40,023 nucleotides of DNA from a virus. A model generated the notes under the pieces. The model worked only from the letters and a program-made list of their open reading frames with translations. It made no database searches and was not told where the DNA came from. Shown here piece after piece: positions 29,819 to 39,430 of this stretch. Position 1 is the stretch's first letter. Every line of letters begins with the position of its first letter. Location of the stretch: the IMG/VR virus record IMGVR_UViG_3300049855_000070, positions 1-40,023 of that record; one strand, written 5' to 3'. The translations under genes and the position numbers were made by a program.

Positions 29819-32068
29819 TTACGTCTCCTCGACGGGCTGACCCATTGATTCCAACTCCTGCGGAGCCTCACTAGGAGGATTAGCGTCAGTTGGTCCCTGT
29901 TGGGCACTCTCTGCAGGCAGTGCAGCTTCCGGGCCGAGTTCTTTTTCTTCTTGCGCAAGCCCGAGCTCAGCCATACGGGTGCGAAGGTCTTTGAGTTGAC
30001 CCTGCATATCCCCAATAATCTTGGGGTCCATCTTATTAATAATGGCTATCTGCAGTTTAGCGTCAACGTCCATTTCAGCAATACGAAGTTTAGCAGCAGT
30101 TTCGGCTGACTTGTCGTCTAACTGTGCTTGACAATCCATTAATTTTTGAGAAAGATCAGCTACAACTTGTTGCAATTGTGCAGAGCGCTGAGTTGCCTCA
30201 GCAGTTTGCTGCTGCATCTGCATCATAGCTTCTTTCATCTTCTCTTCACCAGATTGCTCTATCTTCTCAAGTTCTTCTGGAGGTATAAGACCTGGGTTCT
30301 TCAGGGAAATAGCTTTACGTAGTCGTTTGGCTAGTTCTTGTGATCCTGGGACATCCCAATTTTGAGCAATAATATCCCCAGCAACATCAATCATCCCAGG
30401 ATTAGCTCTAGCTAGTTCTACCATCAAAGCAGATGCTTCTTCACGTTTAGAAGCAAATGAGGGGCCTGAGTCCACATAAACGTCGTACTTACCTACTCCT
30501 AGGGTATAGTAGTTACCGTTTTGATCAGGTGTTAACCTATTGATCTCAATGATCTTAGCTTGCATATCTTCGCCGAGAATACGAACTCGACGATTTGTGT
30601 CATAGATAACTGGGTATATACCCAAGAGTATACGACCAGTATAAGCAACAGCTCGACCATGGTTATCCATGAAGTGATAGTTCGACAACTGAGACGCTGT
30701 TTGTCTGTTCCGAATAGCGACGCCAGTAGTTTCGTTGCTCTTTTGACCAAGAGCCGACGGATAGATACCCGTTGTTTGATATAAATCTTCGCGAGCAAGA
30801 TTAATCTCATTAGTTACCCCAGTAGGTATAGAAGGAAATGGCTGGCGCTGCGGAGGAGGCGCTAGGTGACCATCTATAGAAACGGGGTCGTACTCCAAGA
30901 ATGCATGGTTGTCAACATTGGCTGAGGCCCACTTGGATTCTTGTGTTTTAAATTGACCTTTAGCTCCAATATAGGGAGTCTTAGGTGCAAGAGCAACCAT
31001 CTCAGTTGAAGCTGTACGCCAGAAGTTATACATCTGCTGAGCATCTTTAGAGAAGCGAGTAAGCGACGCGTAGATGGTCTTTCCATCAATAAGATACTCT
31101 TCACCAAAGTCTGGTACTATAGGAATATATTTACCTGGGAAGATTCCTTCTTCAAGGATTTCCACAGCGTTCATTTTGTACCACTCGATGCGGCATTCTT
31201 TTAAATTCTTGGAATCAACCTTTTTCCAATTCTTTGGAATCTTGTGACCTTCATCCTTGAAGACCTTAACGAAGTTTCCTTGATTATCAGTATAGAGCTC
31301 TAGGGTTCTCTTAGTATACCTACGAACAAAAAACTCGGCTACCCTGACCGTTTCTTCTTGAACCCAACCAACTGAGTTTCCACTTAAGGCACTGGTAGGA
31401 TAACCTACAGCAGCAGAGTTTGGATAGTCTTCTTCATAGACCTTCTTGGGGATGTCTTCAAACACAAAAGCAAAGTTGGCATCTGAACCATCTGCTTCTT
31501 GGATAAATGGGTCATATACGACCTTATTAATGTCCTTGATCCTTTTGATATAGGCTTCTAGTTCAAATGAACCTTCATCTTCGTAGTCAGTCGTTATTCT
31601 CCAGAAGCCCAACCCCGCCCGGACCGCCCAGTCGAAGCCCGTGTCGTACGCTTGCTGCGCGTTCGAGATGTTTTCCGTGTGCCGAACAAGCCCTTGATAT
31701 ACTTCAGCAGTTGCAATATCAGAGGAGTCATCAAAAGGACGGACACGAATGCGGTGACGATTTTGGCGTTGGTCATTGGTTACCTGCCTTACAAATTGTG
31801 GGAGCTGGTTGATGGTTAGACAGGGTCGGCCGGACCCCTCTCTGTCATTCTTAATGTTCTGAGGCCACTGGTCAATACCAGCAATAAATCGAACATCATC
31901 ATTTCCAGCTGTGTAAACATCTTGCCAAATCTTATTAGCTACGTCAAACAACTCAAGACCCTCATCGAGGATCTTCTGTTTACGGGCTCGCTCTTCTTCG
32001 CCGTCTTCCTGGCCTAAGTCTTCATTTTTCTCAAGTTGTTTGAACTTGTTTTCTTCTAACGCATCCAT
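29819..32068 (-). CDS. Portal protein, P22 gp1 type
   Basis: This 749-residue protein fits the P22-like portal family in length and order. It has the conserved start region DVRFIAGIDQWPQNIKND, then GRPCLTINQLPQFVRQVTNDQRQNR in pieces (GRPCLTINQLPQF and VRQVTNDQRQNR), and AGLGFWRI. It continues with VVYDPFIQEADGSDANFAF and TGIYPSALGQKSNETTGVAI. The last ~120 residues form a long coiled-coil-like Gln/Glu/Lys-rich helix that may correspond to the P22 portal barrel. It forms the dodecameric DNA entry ring. Its ATG overlaps the large-terminase nuclease gene by 13 bases. Confidence 0.9.
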   Translation of the reverse strand: MDALEENKFKQLEKNEDLGQEDGEEERARKQKILDEGLELFDVANKIWQDVYTAGNDDVRFIAGIDQWPQNIKNDREGSGRPCLTINQLPQFVRQVTNDQRQNRHRIRVRPFDDSSDIATAEVYQGLVRHTENISNAQQAYDTGFDWAVRAGLGFWRITTDYEDEGSFELEAYIKRIKDINKVVYDPFIQEADGSDANFAFVFEDIPKKVYEEDYPNSAAVGYPTSALSGNSVGWVQEETVRVAEFFVRRYTKRTLELYTDNQGNFVKVFKDEGHKIPKNWKKVDSKNLKECRIEWYKMNAVEILEEGIFPGKYIPIVPDFGEEYLIDGKTIYASLTRFSKDAQQMYNFWRTASTEMVALAPKTPYIGAKGQFKTQESKWASANVDNHAFLEYDPVSIDGHLAPPPQRQPFPSIPTGVTNEINLAREDLYQTTGIYPSALGQKSNETTGVAIRNRQTASQLSNYHFMDNHGRAVAYTGRILLGIYPVIYDTNRRVRILGEDMQAKIIEINRLTPDQNGNYYTLGVGKYDVYVDSGPSFASKREEASALMVELARANPGMIDVAGDIIAQNWDVPGSQELAKRLRKAISLKNPGLIPPEELEKIEQSGEEKMKEAMMQMQQQTAEATQRSAQLQQVVADLSQKLMDCQAQLDDKSAETAAKLRIAEMDVDAKLQIAIINKMDPKIIGDMQGQLKDLRTRMAELGLAQEEKELGPEAALPAESAQQGPTDANPPSEAPQELESMGQPVEET

Positions 32069-32787
32069 GAGCCCCTCCCGAGGTAGGATTTCTCATAGAC
32101 ACGAGTAGTCTCATGCGGTTTAACACAAGCCACAGCTAATCCGGAAACGTGATTGTATCTCCACGAATCCATGATATGGTCGTTTTTCTTAACGACCTTA
32201 CCTTTCTCATCTCGGCGATACAAACGAATCTCTCCGAAGAATGGGGTGCATGACTCAAAGACCTTTACTTTACCAGCTGAGAGGTCTTGCCAGACGTTAA
32301 GCAAGCCGGACTCTACTGAGTTCTTGGCCTTAGTGATATTGAGCCCTAGACCCTTGTAAATATCAAACAACTTTGAGCCATCAAACTGACCGCTAATATT
32401 GGCCGCGGGATCAATTACTCCGGGAATCCAATCCCCAGGAGCTTTAATAGCCTCGGCATGAATCGCCGGTTGCTCATGTCCAGCTTTATACACGCGGTAT
32501 ATATACTTAACACCACCATCGAGATCATAGGCATACCACTGAGCCGCAGTCCAGTTCCAACCTACGTCCATTCCATAAGAACGAGGCCAGTGGTCAGGGA
32601 TTGCGAAGTCCGCTATTTTATAACTATCCTCGCCGACTGGATAAATGGCTCCAGAACCTAGCTGAGGAATCCCTTTAGAACGAGCGTCGCGTTGAAAGGC
32701 GGGAATACTTTTGAGTAGTTCTTCTTTAGTCGCGTTGTCTAGATGTGGGACATCATCCCAACCAGCCATTACAACAAACTTACTCAT
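32056..32787 (-). CDS. terL: Large terminase, nuclease part (split gene)
   Basis: This 243-residue frame encodes only the RNase H-like headful nuclease half of a large terminase. It starts KFVVMAGWDDVPHL, then has GMDVGW with D74, VIDPAA with D126, and DHIMDSWRY with D203 and D207 as the probable metal ligands. The ATPase half is in a different frame just upstream. The ATG at 32787 overlaps the ATPase stop as ATGAGTAA and has its own ribosome site (AGGGAG, six bases upstream). It may be a separate subunit, or the 3' half of a gene joined by frameshifting or broken by an indel. Confidence 0.85.
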   Translation of the reverse strand: MSKFVVMAGWDDVPHLDNATKEELLKSIPAFQRDARSKGIPQLGSGAIYPVGEDSYKIADFAIPDHWPRSYGMDVGWNWTAAQWYAYDLDGGVKYIYRVYKAGHEQPAIHAEAIKAPGDWIPGVIDPAANISGQFDGSKLFDIYKGLGLNITKAKNSVESGLLNVWQDLSAGKVKVFESCTPFFGEIRLYRRDEKGKVVKKNDHIMDSWRYNHVSGLAVACVKPHETTRVYEKSYLGRGSWMR

Positions 32788-33544
32788 CTGAGTCTCCCTC
32801 GGAATCGAGGCGTGACCCGGAAGAATCGAACCCAGGAATAAGGCCATTATCCAAATAGAGCATGACGACATCAGACATGCCTTCCATTGGTGTAAATGTG
32901 CAGATAACCATTCCATTGACCGTCATTGTCCTTATTAAGCACTCTGTGTAGATGTCAAGAGGGGGTTCTTCATCGAGCCAGGCAACATGCCTCTCTTCAC
33001 CCTCAAAAGCCACTCTTCGTTGGTCATAGGACTTAAGGGTGATGAGGCTGGTTCCTCCGGTAATGTGCTCAAGGTAGATAAGCTCAACCGCATCTTGGAT
33101 TCCAGCCTTTGGAGTATGTCTCTTAATGCAGTCCTGTGGGATAAGTCCGGTCCCAAATTCTCCAACTGGCCCGAGTAGTTTAGCTTGGATAATATCTCGT
33201 GTAGTTTTTCCAGTTGTTCCAGAACATACAGCTGAGATGGGATGCTCAAAGCGTCTTCCTTCCCACCACTCAGGGTATCGACCAGTAGCGTGGAGAACCG
33301 TCTCGTAGCCACCAACACCCTCTGTTTTACCGACGCGATTAGCCGCGAGCATAAGTCTTTCACGGTTGTCCACCCCCGCCCGAAAGAACTCCAGGTGCTT
33401 CTGATATAACTCCCTCCGTAACGGTCCCCTGTCCGGATAGTACTTCTTGATCTTGTTCCTCTTCCGGCGATCCATCTCCATCGCTAGTAATTCGGGGCTT
33501 GGCAACCCGTTGAGTGAGGGCAAGGAAGGAGGCAAGTTCGTCAT
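32780..33544 (-). CDS. terL: Large terminase, ATPase part (split gene)
   Basis: This 254-residue frame encodes the packaging motor ATPase: Walker A LAANRVGKTEG (around 67-76), Walker B VAWLDEE (D191, E192), and a coupling motif CTFTP at 215-219. The frame stops at TAA 32780-32782, soon after the FTP motif and a short acidic tail (DSEGDSDE). A typical large terminase would continue into the nuclease domain here. The nuclease lies in the +1 frame, starting inside this stop. I chose ATG 33544; the start lies inside the small-terminase gene, which overlaps it by about 185 bases. That is a large overlap for real genes, so the exact start is uncertain. Confidence 0.85.
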   Translation of the reverse strand: MTNLPPSLPSLNGLPSPELLAMEMDRRKRNKIKKYYPDRGPLRRELYQKHLEFFRAGVDNRERLMLAANRVGKTEGVGGYETVLHATGRYPEWWEGRRFEHPISAVCSGTTGKTTRDIIQAKLLGPVGEFGTGLIPQDCIKRHTPKAGIQDAVELIYLEHITGGTSLITLKSYDQRRVAFEGEERHVAWLDEEPPLDIYTECLIRTMTVNGMVICTFTPMEGMSDVVMLYLDNGLIPGFDSSGSRLDSEGDSDE

Positions 33545-33899
33545 CAGTGAGATCCGCCAGTCGGTCCATCTGAGCATTGATTATCAGGGTGGATGTGTTC
33601 TGCTCGGCGGGCATGTCTACTACTATCGGCATTTTGCGGTGTATATAAGGCGAAGCGGCTTTGGCGCAATCGACTCGTATATCTAAAGGCACCGTATCGT
33701 TGTTCATGGTCTCTATTAGAAACATGAGAGGCAGCTTGCAGTTTGACTTGATTATCTCTGCTGCAAAATCCCGCATATACGAAGGGATACGCTTGGTTAA
33801 TACCCGCTGTTCGAAGGCCGCTACTGTCGAGCCTGGCTTCCTGCCGCGTGGATTTGGGTTCCATTTTGGTGAACTCGGGTTTAATTTTGGTGTGTCCAT
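33360..33899 (-). CDS. Small terminase-like protein (179 aa)
   Basis: The 179-residue protein is the first gene of the late arm. It has a proline/arginine-rich N-terminus (NPNPRGRKPGS), followed by LPLMFLIETMNND and DIRVDCAKAASPYIHRKMPIV, a stretch seen in phage small-terminase-like proteins next to large terminase genes. The C-terminus is acidic and Gly/Ser-rich. Small terminases recognise the packaging site; here that could be the neighbouring control region. Promoter P6 lies 24 to 58 bases upstream. There is no strong ribosome site; the untranslated leader is short. Confidence 0.7.
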   Translation of the reverse strand: MDTPKLNPSSPKWNPNPRGRKPGSTVAAFEQRVLTKRIPSYMRDFAAEIIKSNCKLPLMFLIETMNNDTVPLDIRVDCAKAASPYIHRKMPIVVDMPAEQNTSTLIINAQMDRLADLTDDELASFLALTQRVAKPRITSDGDGSPEEEQDQEVLSGQGTVTEGVISEAPGVLSGGGGQP

Positions 33900-33915
33900 A
33901 TTTATAGAATGCCGA

Positions 33916-33957
33916 TATATCTAATATACTACAATTAATCGGCTTTGTACACTAGTT
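33916..33957 (-). promoter_or_regulatory. Late promoter P6 (leftward)
   Basis: Reading the minus strand, a -35-like TGTACA (33946-33951) is followed by exactly 17 bases and a TATATT box (33923-33928). The 14-base word AACTAGTGTACAAA around the upstream box is identical to that of the rightward promoter at 38002-38015, with the same spacing. It is placed to drive the whole late arm, starting with the small terminase ATG at 33899. The expected start site is about 33916. Confidence 0.7.
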
Positions 33958-34125
33958 TAATTACGTCGCTAGTACTTACGACGCATGTGACTTGGGTCGC
34001 TGAGTGTGTAGCTTGGACCCCGCCCCTAGGTTTTCGGTGCTCAGTTAATGGTCATCGGAGTAGAGCTATCACTAGTACGCTATAGAAGCGGGCTCCAACG
34101 TGTATACACCGGGGCCCTTGGCCTG
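33958..34125. other. Divergent control region, upstream part without genes
   Basis: This is the first part of the 829-base gene-free region between the two arms. I see no open frame worth calling. It holds a perfect 10-bp palindrome GTGTATACAC at 34100-34109 and several short GC-rich blocks, and it ends at the dyad array. It is a natural place for a packaging site next to the small terminase gene, but no pac signal can be named from sequence alone. Confidence 0.5.
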
Positions 34126-34326
34126 TTAACCTACAGGTTACGGTAACATCCATGTTACAGTGACACGCACGTTACCTCGCTGCTCGCATCTCTATCCTCT
34201 GCGATCTAAGTAACACGCACGTTACCTGGTAACCTCTACATTACGTGTAACTTCGATGTCACCTCGATTCGCGATGTATTATTCTTGTCACATGTATCTC
34301 AGATGTTACAGTAACCTTCGAGTTAA
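34126..34326. repeat. Array of eight 16-bp dyads, GTNAC-N6-GTNAC
   Basis: Eight copies of a two-fold symmetric site lie at 34126, 34143, 34160, 34210, 34229, 34247, 34294 and 34311 (each 16 bp). Half-sites are GTAAC on the left and GTTAC on the right, with at most one mismatch per half-site. The best copies are GTAACATCCATGTTAC (34143-34158), which has 7-bp arms, and GTAACACGCACGTTAC (34210-34225). Start-to-start distances are 17, 17, 50, 19, 18, 47 and 17 bases. This is the size and spacing of repeated operators or origin iterons bound by a dimeric protein. It lies next to AT-rich DNA. Two further copies occur at 35036 and 35054. Confidence 0.85.
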
Positions 34327-34662
34327 CAGGGGGTTGAGTGTGGTATTTGTTATTGTTTATTCCCGGTGTGGTGATTGAGGTATTATATTAGTATACGAAC
34401 GAAAAATAACGAAGAGGGGGCCGTTTATTTAATATTTTATTATGCCAATAACTCTAATAATACCAATAACATTAATCACATTTAACAGGATAATCAAGAA
34501 AAAGATAAAGCTATACGAAAGAAAAATGACGAAGAGTAGCCCTATTTGTGATTTTTGGTTTTAATACTAATACAATATTTACATTCTCCGCACTTTTCGC
34601 CTCATTATCACCCTGTCCAAAGATTCGAGACGCGAGAATCACACACCAAGGTTCACAAATAA
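34327..34662. other. AT-rich gene-free region with two 25-bp direct repeats; origin candidate
   Basis: This stretch follows the dyad array and is strongly AT-rich. Two copies of a 25-base sequence beginning TATACGAA(C/A)GAAAAAT and ending ACGAAGAG occur at 34392-34416 and 34512-34536, with two mismatches, exactly 120 bases apart. There are also repeats of CCAATAAC near 34444 and 34463. A 40-codon frame from 34442 exists but has no ribosome site and I do not call it. Together with the adjacent dyads it resembles a replication origin: binding sites next to an easily melted segment, at the point from which both arms diverge. Confidence 0.55.
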
Positions 34663-34729
34663 ATCGCTAAGAATTCCAAATATCACACAGCGAAATAAAA
34701 TAAACAAAATTTGTACTATATTATTACTA
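34663..34729 (+). promoter_or_regulatory. Promoter P2 with composite upstream element
   Basis: The words ATCGCTAAG (34663-34671) and ACAGCGAAATA (34687-34697) lie upstream, with exactly 19 bases between the second word and TATATT (34717-34722). The same arrangement occurs at 447-507. The ATG of the downstream gene lies six bases after TATATT, at the expected transcription start, so the message may be leaderless. It would drive the first rightward early gene. Confidence 0.6.
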
Positions 34730-35142
34730 TGGGCAGAACACAATTAAAACAGCATCTCATGTCTTTAGATATTATTCGCAACATAGAAAAACTATTTCCA
34801 AAGGTTTCCGATTTCTATTATCTTTGCTTTGAGGAGCAAAGACTTCCTATGGTAGAATACTATTCTGCAATGCGTCACGAATATCACAGAGGTGACGTGA
34901 TAGATTTAATAGAAGCCAACTATTGGTCCTTTATCCAAGACACTCCTTATTCTCACGAAGACTTTTGTCTCGCTCCAAGAATCGAGGACATTCAACCACT
35001 TCTTCTTGAATCATTCGAACTACTTAAGAAACTAAGTAACAACCCTGTCACCTGTGACCCACAAGTTACCTCCGATCTTATAAAACGAGTCGAGATTTCT
35101 ATTTTCATCCTTAATTGTACTAGTAAATACAAAGTAAAATAA
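34729..35142 (+). CDS. First rightward early protein, unknown (137 aa)
   Basis: I do not recognise this protein. It is 137 residues, mostly helical in appearance, with an aromatic-rich part (FYYLCFEEQ, YWSFIQD) and no membrane segment. I take ATG 34729 as the start; an in-frame TTG at 34711 lies inside the promoter. No ribosome site is visible and the ATG falls at the expected transcript start, so translation may be leaderless. Two copies of the GTNAC dyad lie within its 3' end (35036-35069). It is the closest gene to the dyad array and could encode its binding protein, but no helix-turn-helix is obvious. Confidence 0.65.
   Translation: MGRTQLKQHLMSLDIIRNIEKLFPKVSDFYYLCFEEQRLPMVEYYSAMRHEYHRGDVIDLIEANYWSFIQDTPYSHEDFCLAPRIEDIQPLLLESFELLKKLSNNPVTCDPQVTSDLIKRVEISIFILNCTSKYKVK
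35036..35069. repeat. Two further GTNAC-N6-GTNAC dyads inside a coding region
   Basis: GTAAC-N6-GTCAC at 35036-35051 and GTGAC-N6-GTTAC at 35054-35069 match the consensus of the array at 34126-34326, and their 18-base spacing is like that within the array. They lie in codons for the last third of the 137-residue protein, about 710 bases from the array. Such a pair could loop to the main array or control downstream transcription. Confidence 0.7.
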
Positions 35143-35156
35143 CAGTAAGATTATTT

Positions 35157-35232
35157 GTGCACCTATTAAACTTTAAAGTAGTGCACAAAAAGATTTACCT
35201 TTATTTAACCATGTGCACTATGTTCTTTGCAC
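35157..35232. promoter_or_regulatory. Cluster of GTGCAC sites upstream of promoter P3
   Basis: The palindrome GTGCAC occurs three times (35157-35162, 35181-35186, 35213-35218) and a near copy TTGCAC at 35227-35232, all within 76 bases. The flanks often read TTTGTGCAC or GTGCACAAA. The last copy overlaps the region just downstream of the upstream box of promoter P3, so a protein bound there could block or assist the polymerase. Confidence 0.5.
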
Positions 35233-35256
35233 AAATATTGTTGTATATTATAGATA
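35221..35256 (+). promoter_or_regulatory. Promoter P3
   Basis: TGTTCT (35221-35226), a 17-base spacer and TATATT (35244-35249) match the pattern of the phage's other promoters (TGTACA-N17-TATATT). The expected start coincides with an ATG at 35256, six bases after the box. Confidence 0.5.
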
Positions 35257-35393
35257 TGAATAACGAACTAATAAACGAAAAAAGAGACTGGAACAAAAAG
35301 TTCCAAAAATCTTTTAAAGTTTCTATGTACGTTACTCATAATTCATTGTATATTATAACCATGAGCAATAAAGCTCATACATCAGGAGAATAA
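35256..35393 (+). CDS. Possible small early protein (45 aa), leaderless
   Basis: This 45-residue frame starts at ATG 35256, at the expected transcript start of promoter P3, and has no ribosome site. The product is basic and polar (NEKRDWNKKFQKSFK) and unrecognised. Promoter P4 and the ribosome site of the next gene lie inside it, and its last ten codons from ATG 35361 could also be read as a short leader. A TGGAAC-N5-GTTCCA palindrome is at 35289-35305. It may be a real peptide or a chance frame. Confidence 0.4.
   Translation: MNNELINEKRDWNKKFQKSFKVSMYVTHNSLYIITMSNKAHTSGE
35326..35361 (+). promoter_or_regulatory. Promoter P4
   Basis: TGTACG (35326-35331), a 17-base spacer and TATATT (35349-35354) form a promoter 46 bases before the gene at 35395. 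The expected start is A35361, giving a leader of about 34 bases with AGGAG. A perfect 6-bp palindrome TGGAAC-N5-GTTCCA lies just upstream at 35289-35305. Confidence 0.6.
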
Positions 35394-35394
35394 C

Positions 35395-35757
35395 ATGGAA
35401 ATCAAGTACTCTATAACCAAAGACAATCTTCCCGCCAAGCTTAATCCTCAACAAAAGCAACTCGTGGAAGCTTTACAGATTTTTGACGGTCAAGTAATAA
35501 CCAAGGAAGACATTCTTCCCGAAATCACCAAAACCCTGGTAACTCGTCAAGACCCTTGGCTAATCCTTAAATACTACCAACCAGGTTTCCTTGAGTCCGG
35601 TTTCATCACCATCGAAAAAACCAAAAAACCTAAAGTTCTAAAGACCCCAAAACAGGTCGAAATGGACCTCGGTTTAATGACCGAGGCGGAATTGGACGTC
35701 TCCGAGGAAGAATGGGACTCTATTCCGGATGACGAAGAAGTGACTGAAGAGGTCTAA
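35395..35757 (+). CDS. Early protein with paralogous winged-helix-like domain (120 aa)
   Basis: This 120-residue protein has a compact domain at about residues 14-75: LNPQQKQLVEAL (16-27), then RQDP (51-54), YY (60-61) and ESGFITIE (67-74). A linker follows, then a strongly acidic tail (DVSEEEWDSIPDDEEVTEEV, residues 101-120). The domain pattern recurs in the proteins at 37209 and 38089. The start has CAGGAGAATAAC upstream. The helix-helix-helix-beta order suggests a small winged helix, possibly binding DNA or a host protein, and the acidic tail would suit a DNA-mimicking or regulatory role. Both ideas are inference. Confidence 0.7.
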   Translation: MEIKYSITKDNLPAKLNPQQKQLVEALQIFDGQVITKEDILPEITKTLVTRQDPWLILKYYQPGFLESGFITIEKTKKPKVLKTPKQVEMDLGLMTEAELDVSEEEWDSIPDDEEVTEEV

Positions 35758-36170: not shown

Positions 36171-36204
36171 CGTAATTTACGACTCAATTGAGTCGTAAAT
36201 TACG
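36171..36204. terminator. Perfect 34-bp palindrome
   Basis: Bases 36171-36204 are perfectly self-complementary: arms of 17 bases starting CGTAATTTACGACTCAA. They lie 11 bases after the stop of the exported protein gene and are followed by CCTTATTTAAGG. It can form a very stable hairpin with almost no loop. It could act as a terminator or processing site in RNA, or as a cruciform or binding site in DNA. Confidence 0.6.
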
Positions 36205-36522: not shown

Positions 36523-36745
36523 ACCAGTAGTGTCAGAATCCGAACCGATCTCAACCCAATCATTCCAAGATAAACCGGTAATCATGACCGATGTGCATGC
36601 GATTCTTCTCAAACAATTCTGGAGTGAGGGTATGACCCCAACGCCGATGGTATTAGAGTTAGTCGCCGCGTGCCCGGAGCTGAGTGAGGAGCAAGGTTGG
36701 TTGGTAGTCATGCACTGGATGTGGTCCGATAAGTTCAGAGTGTAG
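36509..36745 (+). CDS. Small early protein (78 aa)
   Basis: The 78-residue product starts at ATG 36509 with AAGGTG upstream, overlapping the previous gene by 14 bases. It has a polar N-terminus, then VHAILLKQFWSEGMTPTPMVLELV and LSEEQGWLVVMHWMWSDKF (from about residues 29 and 58; each a separate segment here). It is rich in Trp and Met at the C-terminus. Unrecognised. A structured leader region follows. Confidence 0.6.
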   Translation: MQEPKPVVSESEPISTQSFQDKPVIMTDVHAILLKQFWSEGMTPTPMVLELVAACPELSEEQGWLVVMHWMWSDKFRV

Positions 36746-37056: not shown

Positions 37057-37216
37057 CGGAGACCCAAGAGACTACACCAAGGAACCTGTAACCTTATTAG
37101 ATCCAATGTGGGTGCTAAAGATGAGGAACAGGCTCAAAGAATTTAAGAAATCCGGTGACATACGTTGGTTTGAATCCAAGATTCTAGCGGATGAAGTCGA
37201 GGTGACACGTGGCTAA
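37043..37216 (+). CDS. Small early protein (57 aa)
   Basis: This 57-residue basic protein starts at ATG 37043 with AGGAGG seven bases upstream. It includes a WVLKMRNRLKEFKKSG helix and ends EVTRG. It overlaps the gene before by 14 bases and the next GTG by eight. Unrecognised. Confidence 0.6.
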   Translation: MINGSGDPRDYTKEPVTLLDPMWVLKMRNRLKEFKKSGDIRWFESKILADEVEVTRG

Positions 37217-37967
37217 GATAGCGATGCACCCAGAAACCTTAGACATTAGAGAGTTCAAGCCTCAACTGGATCTGTACAAGCGAGGATACTTTGTGTTTTC
37301 AACTGCCGAACAGCTGTATGCCAAGGCAGATGGGGAGACAATTGACAGGATTTTGCAAGAATTCTATCCCAATAAGAAGCGAGGTCGACAGTCTAAGGCC
37401 GATATTATCACCAAACTATGGCCGGAAATAGTACTTCGAGGTATAAATAACCTCGCTCCCGTGCCTCTTCTCAAGCGTGAAACTGAAGAAGAAGCCTTGG
37501 CCAAACAGTTCAACAGACCAACAGGTGCTCCACCAACTGAATTAGTTGGCTTTCCTACTCAAGGACGTCGTATCGGAATTACTGATGATAGGGAGGACCT
37601 CCTTCGTAAACACGCTAATATAAATCAAAAAGTCGACTCAACGGTCCATAAACTAGGGCGTGGAAACCACAACCCACGATTACCGAACTTCGAATTGACA
37701 GGGGCGGATCATGAGGGTCGGTTACCGCCTCAAGCTCAACTGCTTTCCGTCGGCTTTAAAACTCTGTTCAACGCGAAGGTGACGACTGTTACTCAGGCAG
37801 AGGTCCCAGAATACCTCAGAGAGATGCGGCTTGCAACGACACAAGATCCAATGCGAATCTTCCGTTATTACTTCTGGGCGTTAGTTCAGGCTGGAGTGAT
37901 AAAGGTCGAAAATACGATCCGTGTCGATTCCGTCGTAAAACGATTGAATACGCGAGTTGGAGGTTAA
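37209..37967 (+). CDS. Early protein with C-terminal paralogous domain (252 aa)
   Basis: This 252-residue protein starts at GTG 37209 with GAGGTG upstream. The N-terminal part has a KKRGRQSKADIITKLWPEIV segment that could be a DNA- or RNA-binding helix pair, then a low-complexity linker. The C-terminal part (about 172-235) has LPPQAQLL, TQDP (211-214), YY (220-221) and QAGVIKVE (227-234), the same order and nearly the same spacing as in the proteins at 35395 and 38089. No family known to me covers it. The gene is the last before the promoter at 38002. Confidence 0.7.
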   Translation: MAKIAMHPETLDIREFKPQLDLYKRGYFVFSTAEQLYAKADGETIDRILQEFYPNKKRGRQSKADIITKLWPEIVLRGINNLAPVPLLKRETEEEALAKQFNRPTGAPPTELVGFPTQGRRIGITDDREDLLRKHANINQKVDSTVHKLGRGNHNPRLPNFELTGADHEGRLPPQAQLLSVGFKTLFNAKVTTVTQAEVPEYLREMRLATTQDPMRIFRYYFWALVQAGVIKVENTIRVDSVVKRLNTRVGG

Positions 37968-38088: not shown

Positions 38089-38538
38089 ATGGATACTGCA
38101 ACGATTGACACCCAAGTTGAACTGAATCCCGCTCAGGCTAAGGCCGCGGAAATTCTCGCCAAGCGTGGAAAGAAAGCCCCTAAGACCGAGGGTGAAGCCG
38201 AAGTCAAGGTTCCTAAGGCACCGAAAGCCCCCAAAGCGCCTCCCGCTAAGGTTGGCTACAAGTTCTTGCGTGATATGGATGAACATGACAAGCTGAACAA
38301 CCAACAGAAAATCCTTATCGATGCCATGCTCCGTTTGCGTGGAACCGAAGGTGATTCCAAAGACGTGGTTGTTCGCAGCCAGTTGATCAGCGAAGTGACG
38401 CCCGAGATGCTGAAGAGCCGTCAGTCAACGGAAGCCGTTCTCGGTTTCTACATGAACGGTTGGAAAAAAGGGAAAGAAGCTACGGACAAGAAACCCGCCA
38501 TCGCTCCTTTGCTCGAAGTTGTAAAGATCGCCGGATAA
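38089..38538 (+). CDS. Early protein with paralogous domain and PKA linker (149 aa)
   Basis: The 149-residue protein has a short N-terminal LNPAQAKAA helix, then a lysine/alanine/proline linker with repeated PKAPKAP (about residues 42-54) similar to histone H1-like tails. The domain shared with the two other early proteins follows: LNNQQK (69-74), RQS (111-113), FY (120-121) and LLEVVKI at the end. The basic linker suggests DNA binding. Promoter P5 is directly upstream and AAGGAG precedes the ATG. Downstream is a structured, gene-free region. Confidence 0.7.
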   Translation: MDTATIDTQVELNPAQAKAAEILAKRGKKAPKTEGEAEVKVPKAPKAPKAPPAKVGYKFLRDMDEHDKLNNQQKILIDAMLRLRGTEGDSKDVVVRSQLISEVTPEMLKSRQSTEAVLGFYMNGWKKGKEATDKKPAIAPLLEVVKIAG

Positions 38539-38918: not shown

Positions 38919-39215
38919 ATGGCAATCAAGAAGACTACAACTAAGACCAAGAAATTCTGGGAAGCTGGAAAAGCTTATTTCATTCGCACTGTCACTCATT
39001 ACCATACAGGTAAGTTGGTGCGCGAGGAAAAAGACTGCTTTATATTTACCAATGCAGCCTGGATCGCGGACACAGGTCGATTCGCCAATTTCTTGAAGAC
39101 TGGTATTCCAAATGAAGTGGAGCCATTCCCTCAGGACCTTGAAGTCGCGGTTCCTAAGATGTCCATCGTAGATGCTTGCTTTTGGCCACATGAGCTCCCT
39201 AAGGAGCAAAAGTGA
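38919..39215 (+). CDS. Conserved phage hypothetical protein (98 aa)
   Basis: This 98-residue protein has the pattern KAYFIRTVTHYHTGKLV, AAWIADTGRFANFLKTG, NEVEPFP, and SIVDACFWPHELPKEQK. I recognise it as a widespread phage and prophage protein of unknown function (the IVDA..W.H.LP.EQK ending is characteristic). It has a lysine/threonine-rich N-terminus. The ATG at 38919 has AGGAG nine bases upstream. The next frame begins with GTG 39212, overlapping its stop. Confidence 0.75.
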   Translation: MAIKKTTTKTKKFWEAGKAYFIRTVTHYHTGKLVREEKDCFIFTNAAWIADTGRFANFLKTGIPNEVEPFPQDLEVAVPKMSIVDACFWPHELPKEQK

Positions 39216-39430
39216 AGACGGCCGCCCTGTCAAAAGCAGGGGTAGACAGCTCCTGGTCGTGGTCGCGGTCGCGGTCGCGGTCGGGGTCGCGGTCGTGGTC
39301 GCGGTCGCGGTCGGGGTCGCGGTCGGGGTCGTGGTCGGGGTCGTGGTCGCGGTCGGGGTCGTGGTCGCGGTCGCGGTCGCGGTCGGGGTCGCGGTCGCGG
39401 TCGGGGTCGCGGTCGTGGTCGTGGTCGTAA
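39212..39430 (+). CDS. Possible Ser/Arg-repeat protein read from the tandem repeat (72 aa)
   Basis: A GTG at 39212 with AAGGAG five bases upstream (inside the end of the previous gene) opens a 72-codon frame: MKTAALSKAGVDSS, then a run of Ser-(Arg/Trp/Gly) dipeptides produced by the GGTCGN repeat. It is the only frame through the repeat with a good start and ribosome site. However, base changes in the repeat would alter the protein in this frame, and they would be silent in the Gly-Arg frame, which has no start. Whether this is a real gene is unclear. Confidence 0.35.
   Translation: MKTAALSKAGVDSSWSWSRSRSRSGSRSWSRSRSGSRSGSWSGSWSRSGSWSRSRSRSGSRSRSGSRSWSWS
39255..39428. repeat. Hexamer tandem repeat (GGTCGN)29
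   Basis: Exactly 29 uninterrupted copies of GGTCGN fill 174 bases. The sixth base is C, G or T, never A. Five of six positions never change. In the plus-strand frame starting at 39255 every variation is silent (Gly-Arg), and in the complementary minus-strand frame also (Arg-Pro), but neither frame has a start codon here. Other frames give Ser-x, Val-x, Asp-x or Thr-x. The GC-rich run stands out sharply from the AT-rich genome. Confidence 0.95.

Follow-up and report, generated by a model that had tools for sequence, protein, structure and literature searches.

The replication origin of bacteriophage lambda (ori-lambda) comprises an array of 19-bp near-perfect inverted repeats, which are bound by dimers of the O protein. 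The array lies inside a transcribed gene, and the A+T-rich DNA adjoining it is opened (PMC5043065). In the PLE satellite, the proven origin is located in a repeat-bearing noncoding gap between divergent operons, where inverted-repeat iterons bind the satellite's own initiator RepA, a member of the RepA_N family (PMC7145576). Mycobacteriophage stoperators are asymmetric sites spread across the genome (PMC9283540). Here, we describe an array of inverted repeats in an IMG/VR virus record of 40,023 nt, the whole of which is termed the window in the following and which belongs to an uncultured P22-portal podovirus.

The genes of the window are arranged in two arms. The minus strand codes for portal, scaffold, major head protein and terS/terL, and these late genes run leftward from position 33899. 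Rightward from 34729, the early genes on the plus strand code for thymidylate synthase, dCMP deaminase, PolA, an AEP-type primase, a UvrD-like helicase, an SNF2 helicase, SSB and Pam3 gp33/gp34-like proteins. With the primase, both helicases, PolA and SSB, the phage thus encodes a replication set of its own. The leftward arm starts with a terS-like gene (33360-33899, minus strand; phrog_641, E 5.5e-4), and the array is situated inside the 811-bp gap between terS and the early arm. The terL gene consists of two overlapping reading frames within 32056-33577, one for the N-terminal (32780-33577) and one for the C-terminal part (32056-32916). Its match in the closest collinear relative, IMGVR_UViG_3300048080_000084 (G001), has an internal TGA, and MW202785 carries two terL genes; the arrangement may be due to a split gene, a frameshift or an assembly error. 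Several frames are open in a low-complexity stretch at 39212-39430 (VAVGVAV... or DRDPDRD...), near which, at a match to window position 39306, the G001 contig ends.

The first-pass annotation had listed eight dyads of the type GTNAC-N6-GTNAC. All of them are present with at most one mismatch each, four exact (34143, 34160, 34210 and 34247) and four with one mismatch. Dyad 1 (34126-34141, TTAAC-ctacag-GTTAC, one mismatch) is followed by dyad 2 (34143-34158, GTAAC-atccat-GTTAC, exact) and dyad 3 (34160-34175, GTGAC-acgcac-GTTAC, exact at the GTNAC level). Dyad 4 (34210-34225, GTAAC-acgcac-GTTAC, exact) is a near-copy of dyad 3 at 50 bp; the two share a 19-nt block, and the 15-base sequence ACACGCACGTTACCT is, as had been reported, repeated exactly 50 bases apart. 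Further to the right, dyad 5 (34229-34244, GTAAC-ctctac-ATTAC, one mismatch), dyad 6 (34247-34262, GTAAC-ttcgat-GTCAC, exact at the GTNAC level), dyad 7 (34294-34309, GTATC-tcagat-GTTAC, one mismatch) and dyad 8 (34311-34326, GTAAC-cttcga-GTTAA, one mismatch) complete the main array, whose steps of 17, 17, 50, 19, 18, 47 and 17 bases likewise agree with the earlier list. The ends of the array mirror each other, the left flank CCTGTTAAC of dyad 1 corresponding to GTTAACAGG at the right end (inverted repeat I2). Two more dyads, absent from that list, are located 18 bp apart within the first early reading frame, namely dyad 9 (35036-35051, GTAAC-aaccct-GTCAC) and dyad 10 (35054-35069, GTGAC-ccacaa-GTTAC), both exact at the GTNAC level. 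All exact GTNAC-N6-GTNAC sites of the record fall within 34143-35069.

The number of dyads clearly exceeded that obtained by chance. In 2000 dinucleotide-preserving shuffles of the whole gap (33900-34728), a check suggested along with the first list, the mean was 0.42 and the maximum 4, compared to the eight dyads observed. A motif-free scan, allowing any 5-mer arm and spacers of 0-12 within 250 bp, ranked the array first in the window with eight members, while 100 first-order Markov genomes yielded two to three members and never more than three. For GTRAC/GTYAC arms, the N6 spacer gave eight matches and spacers of 0-5 and 7-11 gave none or one. Neighbouring dyads are separated by gaps of 1 to 34 bp; since N6 is constant, GTYAC-N1-GTRAC was ruled out as the repeating unit. 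Pairwise identity among the dyads amounts to 85% in the arms, 37% in the spacers and 28-30% in the flanks. With the exception of dyads 3 and 4, the array does not consist of recent duplicates, so that the arms have been kept while the spacers diverged, as would be expected if a protein reads the arms. The fixed N6, the conserved arms and the unconserved spacers thus argue against repeat expansion, and judged from its nucleotide sequence the locus is a predicted protein-binding array.

Pooled half-sites of the window read GTRACnT. The centres of the two half-sites are 11 bp apart, that is one helical turn, which would fit a symmetric dimer. The dyad centres follow a 17-bp lattice (R 0.89), and helical phasing at 10-11 bp was not detected among them (R 0.1-0.2). 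This combination suggests that neighbouring dimers would be packed against each other and not lie on one face of the DNA.

Nearest-neighbour duplex energies were determined for 150-bp stretches of the whole record. The eight-dyad array has the least stable stretch (34427-34576, 24% GC), a candidate unwinding element, about 100 bp to its right, and the second least stable one (35112-35261, 25% GC) lies 43 bp rightward of dyad 10. Thus, the two lowest-stability stretches of 40 kb adjoin the two dyad clusters, which counts for an origin. The A+T-rich DNA also contains a 25-nt repeat, TATACGAACGAAAAATAACGAAGAG, at 34392-34416 and 34512-34536 (92% identical, 120 bp apart). Furthermore, the sequence TTGTA-n-TATTAT-n-ATG occurs three times (34711, 35241 and 35346), each time before a small early reading frame and with the ATG a few bases past the -10-like box; leaderless early transcripts may possibly arise from these copies. 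Because the A+T-rich stretches hold promoter-like sequences, their instability may reflect early promoters. A turning point of the GC skew, which had been anticipated at the array, was not found there; the cumulative minimum resides at 36185, about 1.9 kb rightward, and that of G001 at 36626.

We favour the reading, with a probability of about 0.45, that the array is an origin-type landing pad, i.e., a set of replication-origin iterons for a dimeric, lineage-specific initiator on the plan of ori-lambda. Each GTRAC-N6-GTYAC dyad would be gripped by one homodimer, and the dimers would be packed next to each other over 34122-34330, one every 17-19 bp, while two more would occupy the outlying dyads at 35036-35069. 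Their binding would strain the DNA and thereby open its A+T-rich stretch at 34427-34576 and possibly that at 35112-35261, whereupon the helicase/primase set of the phage would enter at the opened DNA and forks would leave along both arms. Occupation of the dyads could also control the adjacent early promoters by feedback. Dimer binding, a phage-encoded lineage-specific binder, DNA opening and a replication start at the array are what we infer for this locus.

The corresponding junction between terS and the early arm was compared in related phages. G001 shares about 65% nucleotide identity with the window in coding parts and 61% protein identity in terL. It exhibits the same divergent layout and no GTNAC dyads, and GTNAC dyad arrays are also absent among about 100 terL/pol relatives, so that conservation of the motif, an expectation of the first-pass annotation, was not supported by these relatives. 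The G001 control region is instead rich in repeats of another sequence, namely AGATCAAAT/ATCTGATCTT together with a 20-nt stretch repeated exactly (z 6.7). Two podoviruses more distantly related than G001 possess dyad arrays of their own at this junction, whose sequences are unrelated to that of the window: OR003940 contains TGACCCA-N-TGGGTCA-like sites (L036:33444-33972, z 16.2) and MW202483 contains GTTTA-NN-TAAAC (L040:28219-28600, z 17.6). The junction of P26218 is rich in short repeats (z 13.6) and lacks a clear dyad array, and that of MW202510, whose early arm is collinear, is not clearly repeat-rich (z 2.3). These junctions suggest that the position of a repeat array recurs while its motif changes from lineage to lineage. 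Repeat-rich junctions with differing motifs, as in G001, OR003940, MW202483 and P26218, are what one would expect if the repeats are specific to each initiator. The earlier proposal that relatives of the same gene order lacking any dyads would speak against the array applies literally to the motif in G001; since the same junction carries arrays of another motif in two relatives and is repeat-rich in several, that measure is too strict for fast-evolving binding sites. BLAST searches of the array against plasmids and phages gave no meaningful matches, and a literature search on the arms did not retrieve a description of the motif. In EBPR podovirus 1, about twelve 60-bp tandem repeats occupy the left end of the record (L286:1-740).

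Attempts were also made to identify the binder. Neither lambda-O (PF04492, Phage_rep_O) nor HTH_36 (PF13730) gave a match at E<=1 in the record and G001, HTH_3 (PF01381) was not matched in either of them, and a RepA_N-type protein was not recognised in scans of the record. Binder candidates are the first rightward reading frame ORF1 (34729-35142, plus strand; 137 aa from ATG), in which dyads 9 and 10 reside, and the family of three paralogues 35395-35757, 37209-37967 and 38089-38538, which have the domain L..QQ..L.EAL...RQ.P...I..YY in common. ORF1 has no family match, and G001 lacks it as well as the array, having no ORF at the corresponding place; ORF1 is without relatives and its AlphaFold model is useless (pLDDT 48), so that it was set aside as the binder. 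The gene at 35395-35757 (plus strand) is the earliest early gene common to the window and G001 and represents a candidate DNA-binding family. Its AlphaFold model reveals a confident E-H-H-H-E core of about 76 residues, but it did not match any PDB entry, its matches being unnamed phage proteins (BFVD A0A6J5QDL3, E 6e-6), and this family was set aside as well.

Several findings stand against an origin. Proteins of the lambda-O/HTH_36 type were not found in the record and G001, the GC-skew minima of the window and of G001 lie off the array, and the steps of 17-19 bp are out of helical phase. In addition, G001 is without such dyads, the MW202510 junction is not clearly repeat-rich, and the A+T-rich DNA contains promoter-like sequence. 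The data could also be explained by a multi-site operator, a reading that we regard as possible and somewhat less probable than an origin. A dimeric regulator, Cro/CI-like or with another helix-turn-helix, would bind the dyads cooperatively and balance the late (terS) and early arms, and dyads 9 and 10 would constitute a secondary operator in the first early gene. The array is indeed located between the divergent arms, and dyads 7 and 8 include a promoter-like sequence (TTGTCA-16-TACAGT). However, promoter-like sites are no commoner than in shuffled sequences (9 versus 6.1 +/- 2.7), the first early ORF has its leader-type motif (TTGTA..TATTAT..ATG) about 380 bp away from the array, eight to ten sites are many for an operator region, and HTH_3 was found neither in the record nor in G001.

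The occurrence of the core dyad in other genomes bears on this question. A scan for two neighbouring dyads separated by 1-3 bp detected 18 viral and more than 120 bacterial loci, where a rough estimate of chance predicts a handful. In Sphingomonadales and other alphaproteobacteria (L168-L241), paired dyads mostly at an 18-bp step (tGTAACCynnrGGTTAC-AT-GTAAC...) precede a membrane-protein gene, which is followed by an HTH_3 (Cro/CI-type) regulator. Out of 98 sites of this set, 27 are within 1 kb of an HTH_3 gene, compared to 8.3 expected, and these pairs are probably the operator of the adjoining regulator. Similarly, three cGTAACAG-type dyads are located directly before an HTH_3-type gene in an inovirus (L154:9942-10002) and three more in an inovirus-like sequence (L165:7547-7607), whose next gene resembles by eye that of L154. 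Bacterial arrays of the same core that are tied to promoters of HTH_3 regulators favour operators over an origin, and it is for this tie and for the site between divergent arms that the operator stands next to the origin in our assessment. The two readings are not mutually exclusive. Some viral matches (L152, L155 and L160) with regular 18-bp steps look like in-frame coding repeats and were not considered as operators. A strict IMG/VR scan for triple dyads at 17-17 steps gave one match (L007), which proved to be an A+T-rich tandem repeat of 17 bp unrelated to the array.

Same-core arrays were also found in three gokushoviruses whose VP1 is 71-79% identical (L153:2928-3084, L148:1849-1983 and L163:2213-2330). 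There, GTAAC-N6-GTTAC dyads are located directly upstream of VP4, five to nine of them depending on whether one or two mismatches are allowed, with 16-18-bp steps and largely different spacers. Multi-site operators and iteron arrays are not known to us from the Microviridae, and arrays in front of the replication gene VP4 were therefore unexpected. A host regulator or nucleoid protein reading the array would explain why the same core dyad occurs in unrelated small viruses. A local profile did not find an HTH_3-like protein in the three gokushoviruses, and paired dyads occur widely among bacterial chromosomes, both of which would suit such a host factor. We nevertheless consider it unlikely, as the motif is absent from G001 and from five more distant microviruses and as the extended half-sites differ between groups (GTRACnT in the window, cGTAACAG in the inovirus and tGTAACCT in alphaproteobacteria); a fixed inner base is absent from the chromosomal set with a 17-bp step. 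The differing bases beside the core make several proteins with one geometry likelier than one shared factor and speak against the view that all arrays are read by the same host protein. It is a quite improbable idea that GTAAC-N6-GTTAC is a cis element common to unrelated phages (P22-like podovirus, gokushoviruses and possibly inoviruses) and that a protein of a single kind, which may come from the host, reads it and couples phage replication to the state of the host; if true, this would hold for double-stranded as well as for single-stranded DNA phages.

A partition (centromere-like) or packaging (pac) site is highly improbable: the array does adjoin terS, and centromeres are typically tandem arrays of binding sites, but ParA-, ParB- and ParM-type genes, and hence partition genes of a ParABS-type system, are absent among the Pfam-scanned ORFs of the possibly incomplete record, of which small ORFs were partly covered, known pac sites are short and not dyad arrays, and the second dyad cluster resides inside an early ORF. 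Of the original interpretation, a binding array between divergent arms near A+T-rich DNA has held up, and so have origin and master operator as surviving readings, while partition and packaging were dropped for want of positive evidence. For uncultured P22-portal podoviruses with AEP primases, the array offers a candidate origin or master control site that can be tested, together with a definite motif by which its binding protein could be retrieved.

Compared with known systems, the array shares with stoperators that one site, a repressor site in their case and a predicted binding site here, is present in many copies per phage genome; it differs from stoperators in that its sites are symmetric and clustered, and it was not classed with them. 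Core arms, N6 and a 17-18-bp step are as in the Cro/CI (HTH_3) operators of alphaproteobacteria and inovirus L154. Those operators have two or three sites and, in the examined cases, lie beside an HTH_3 gene, whereas the window has eight plus two sites and another extended half-site. Dyads in a divergent region are present in the window and an adjacent HTH_3 repressor gene is not; by the latter feature, the array is not a CI/Cro operator. With the PLE origin it has in common a repeat-bearing noncoding region flanked by divergent operons and inverted repeats, while its putative iterons are different, a RepA_N-type protein was not recognised in the window, and it is known from sequence alone. 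Closest is ori-lambda, which likewise consists of tandem inverted-repeat sites of 16-19 bp, predicted here to take one dimer each, with A+T-rich DNA on one side. The former view that no iteron of this form is known has to be revised accordingly, as ori-lambda is an inverted-repeat array bound by O dimers beside A+T-rich DNA (PMC5043065). It comprises four sites of another sequence within an early gene, whereas the window has eight plus two sites, of which dyads 9 and 10 are in an early gene and the main array is intergenic. A tandem inverted-repeat array and an adjoining A+T-rich region are present in the window; since an O-type/HTH_36 initiator was not found, the array was not filed as a lambda-type origin. 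The motif itself was not found described in the literature search on its arms, whereas dyad arrays at divergent control regions are known as a kind of layout.
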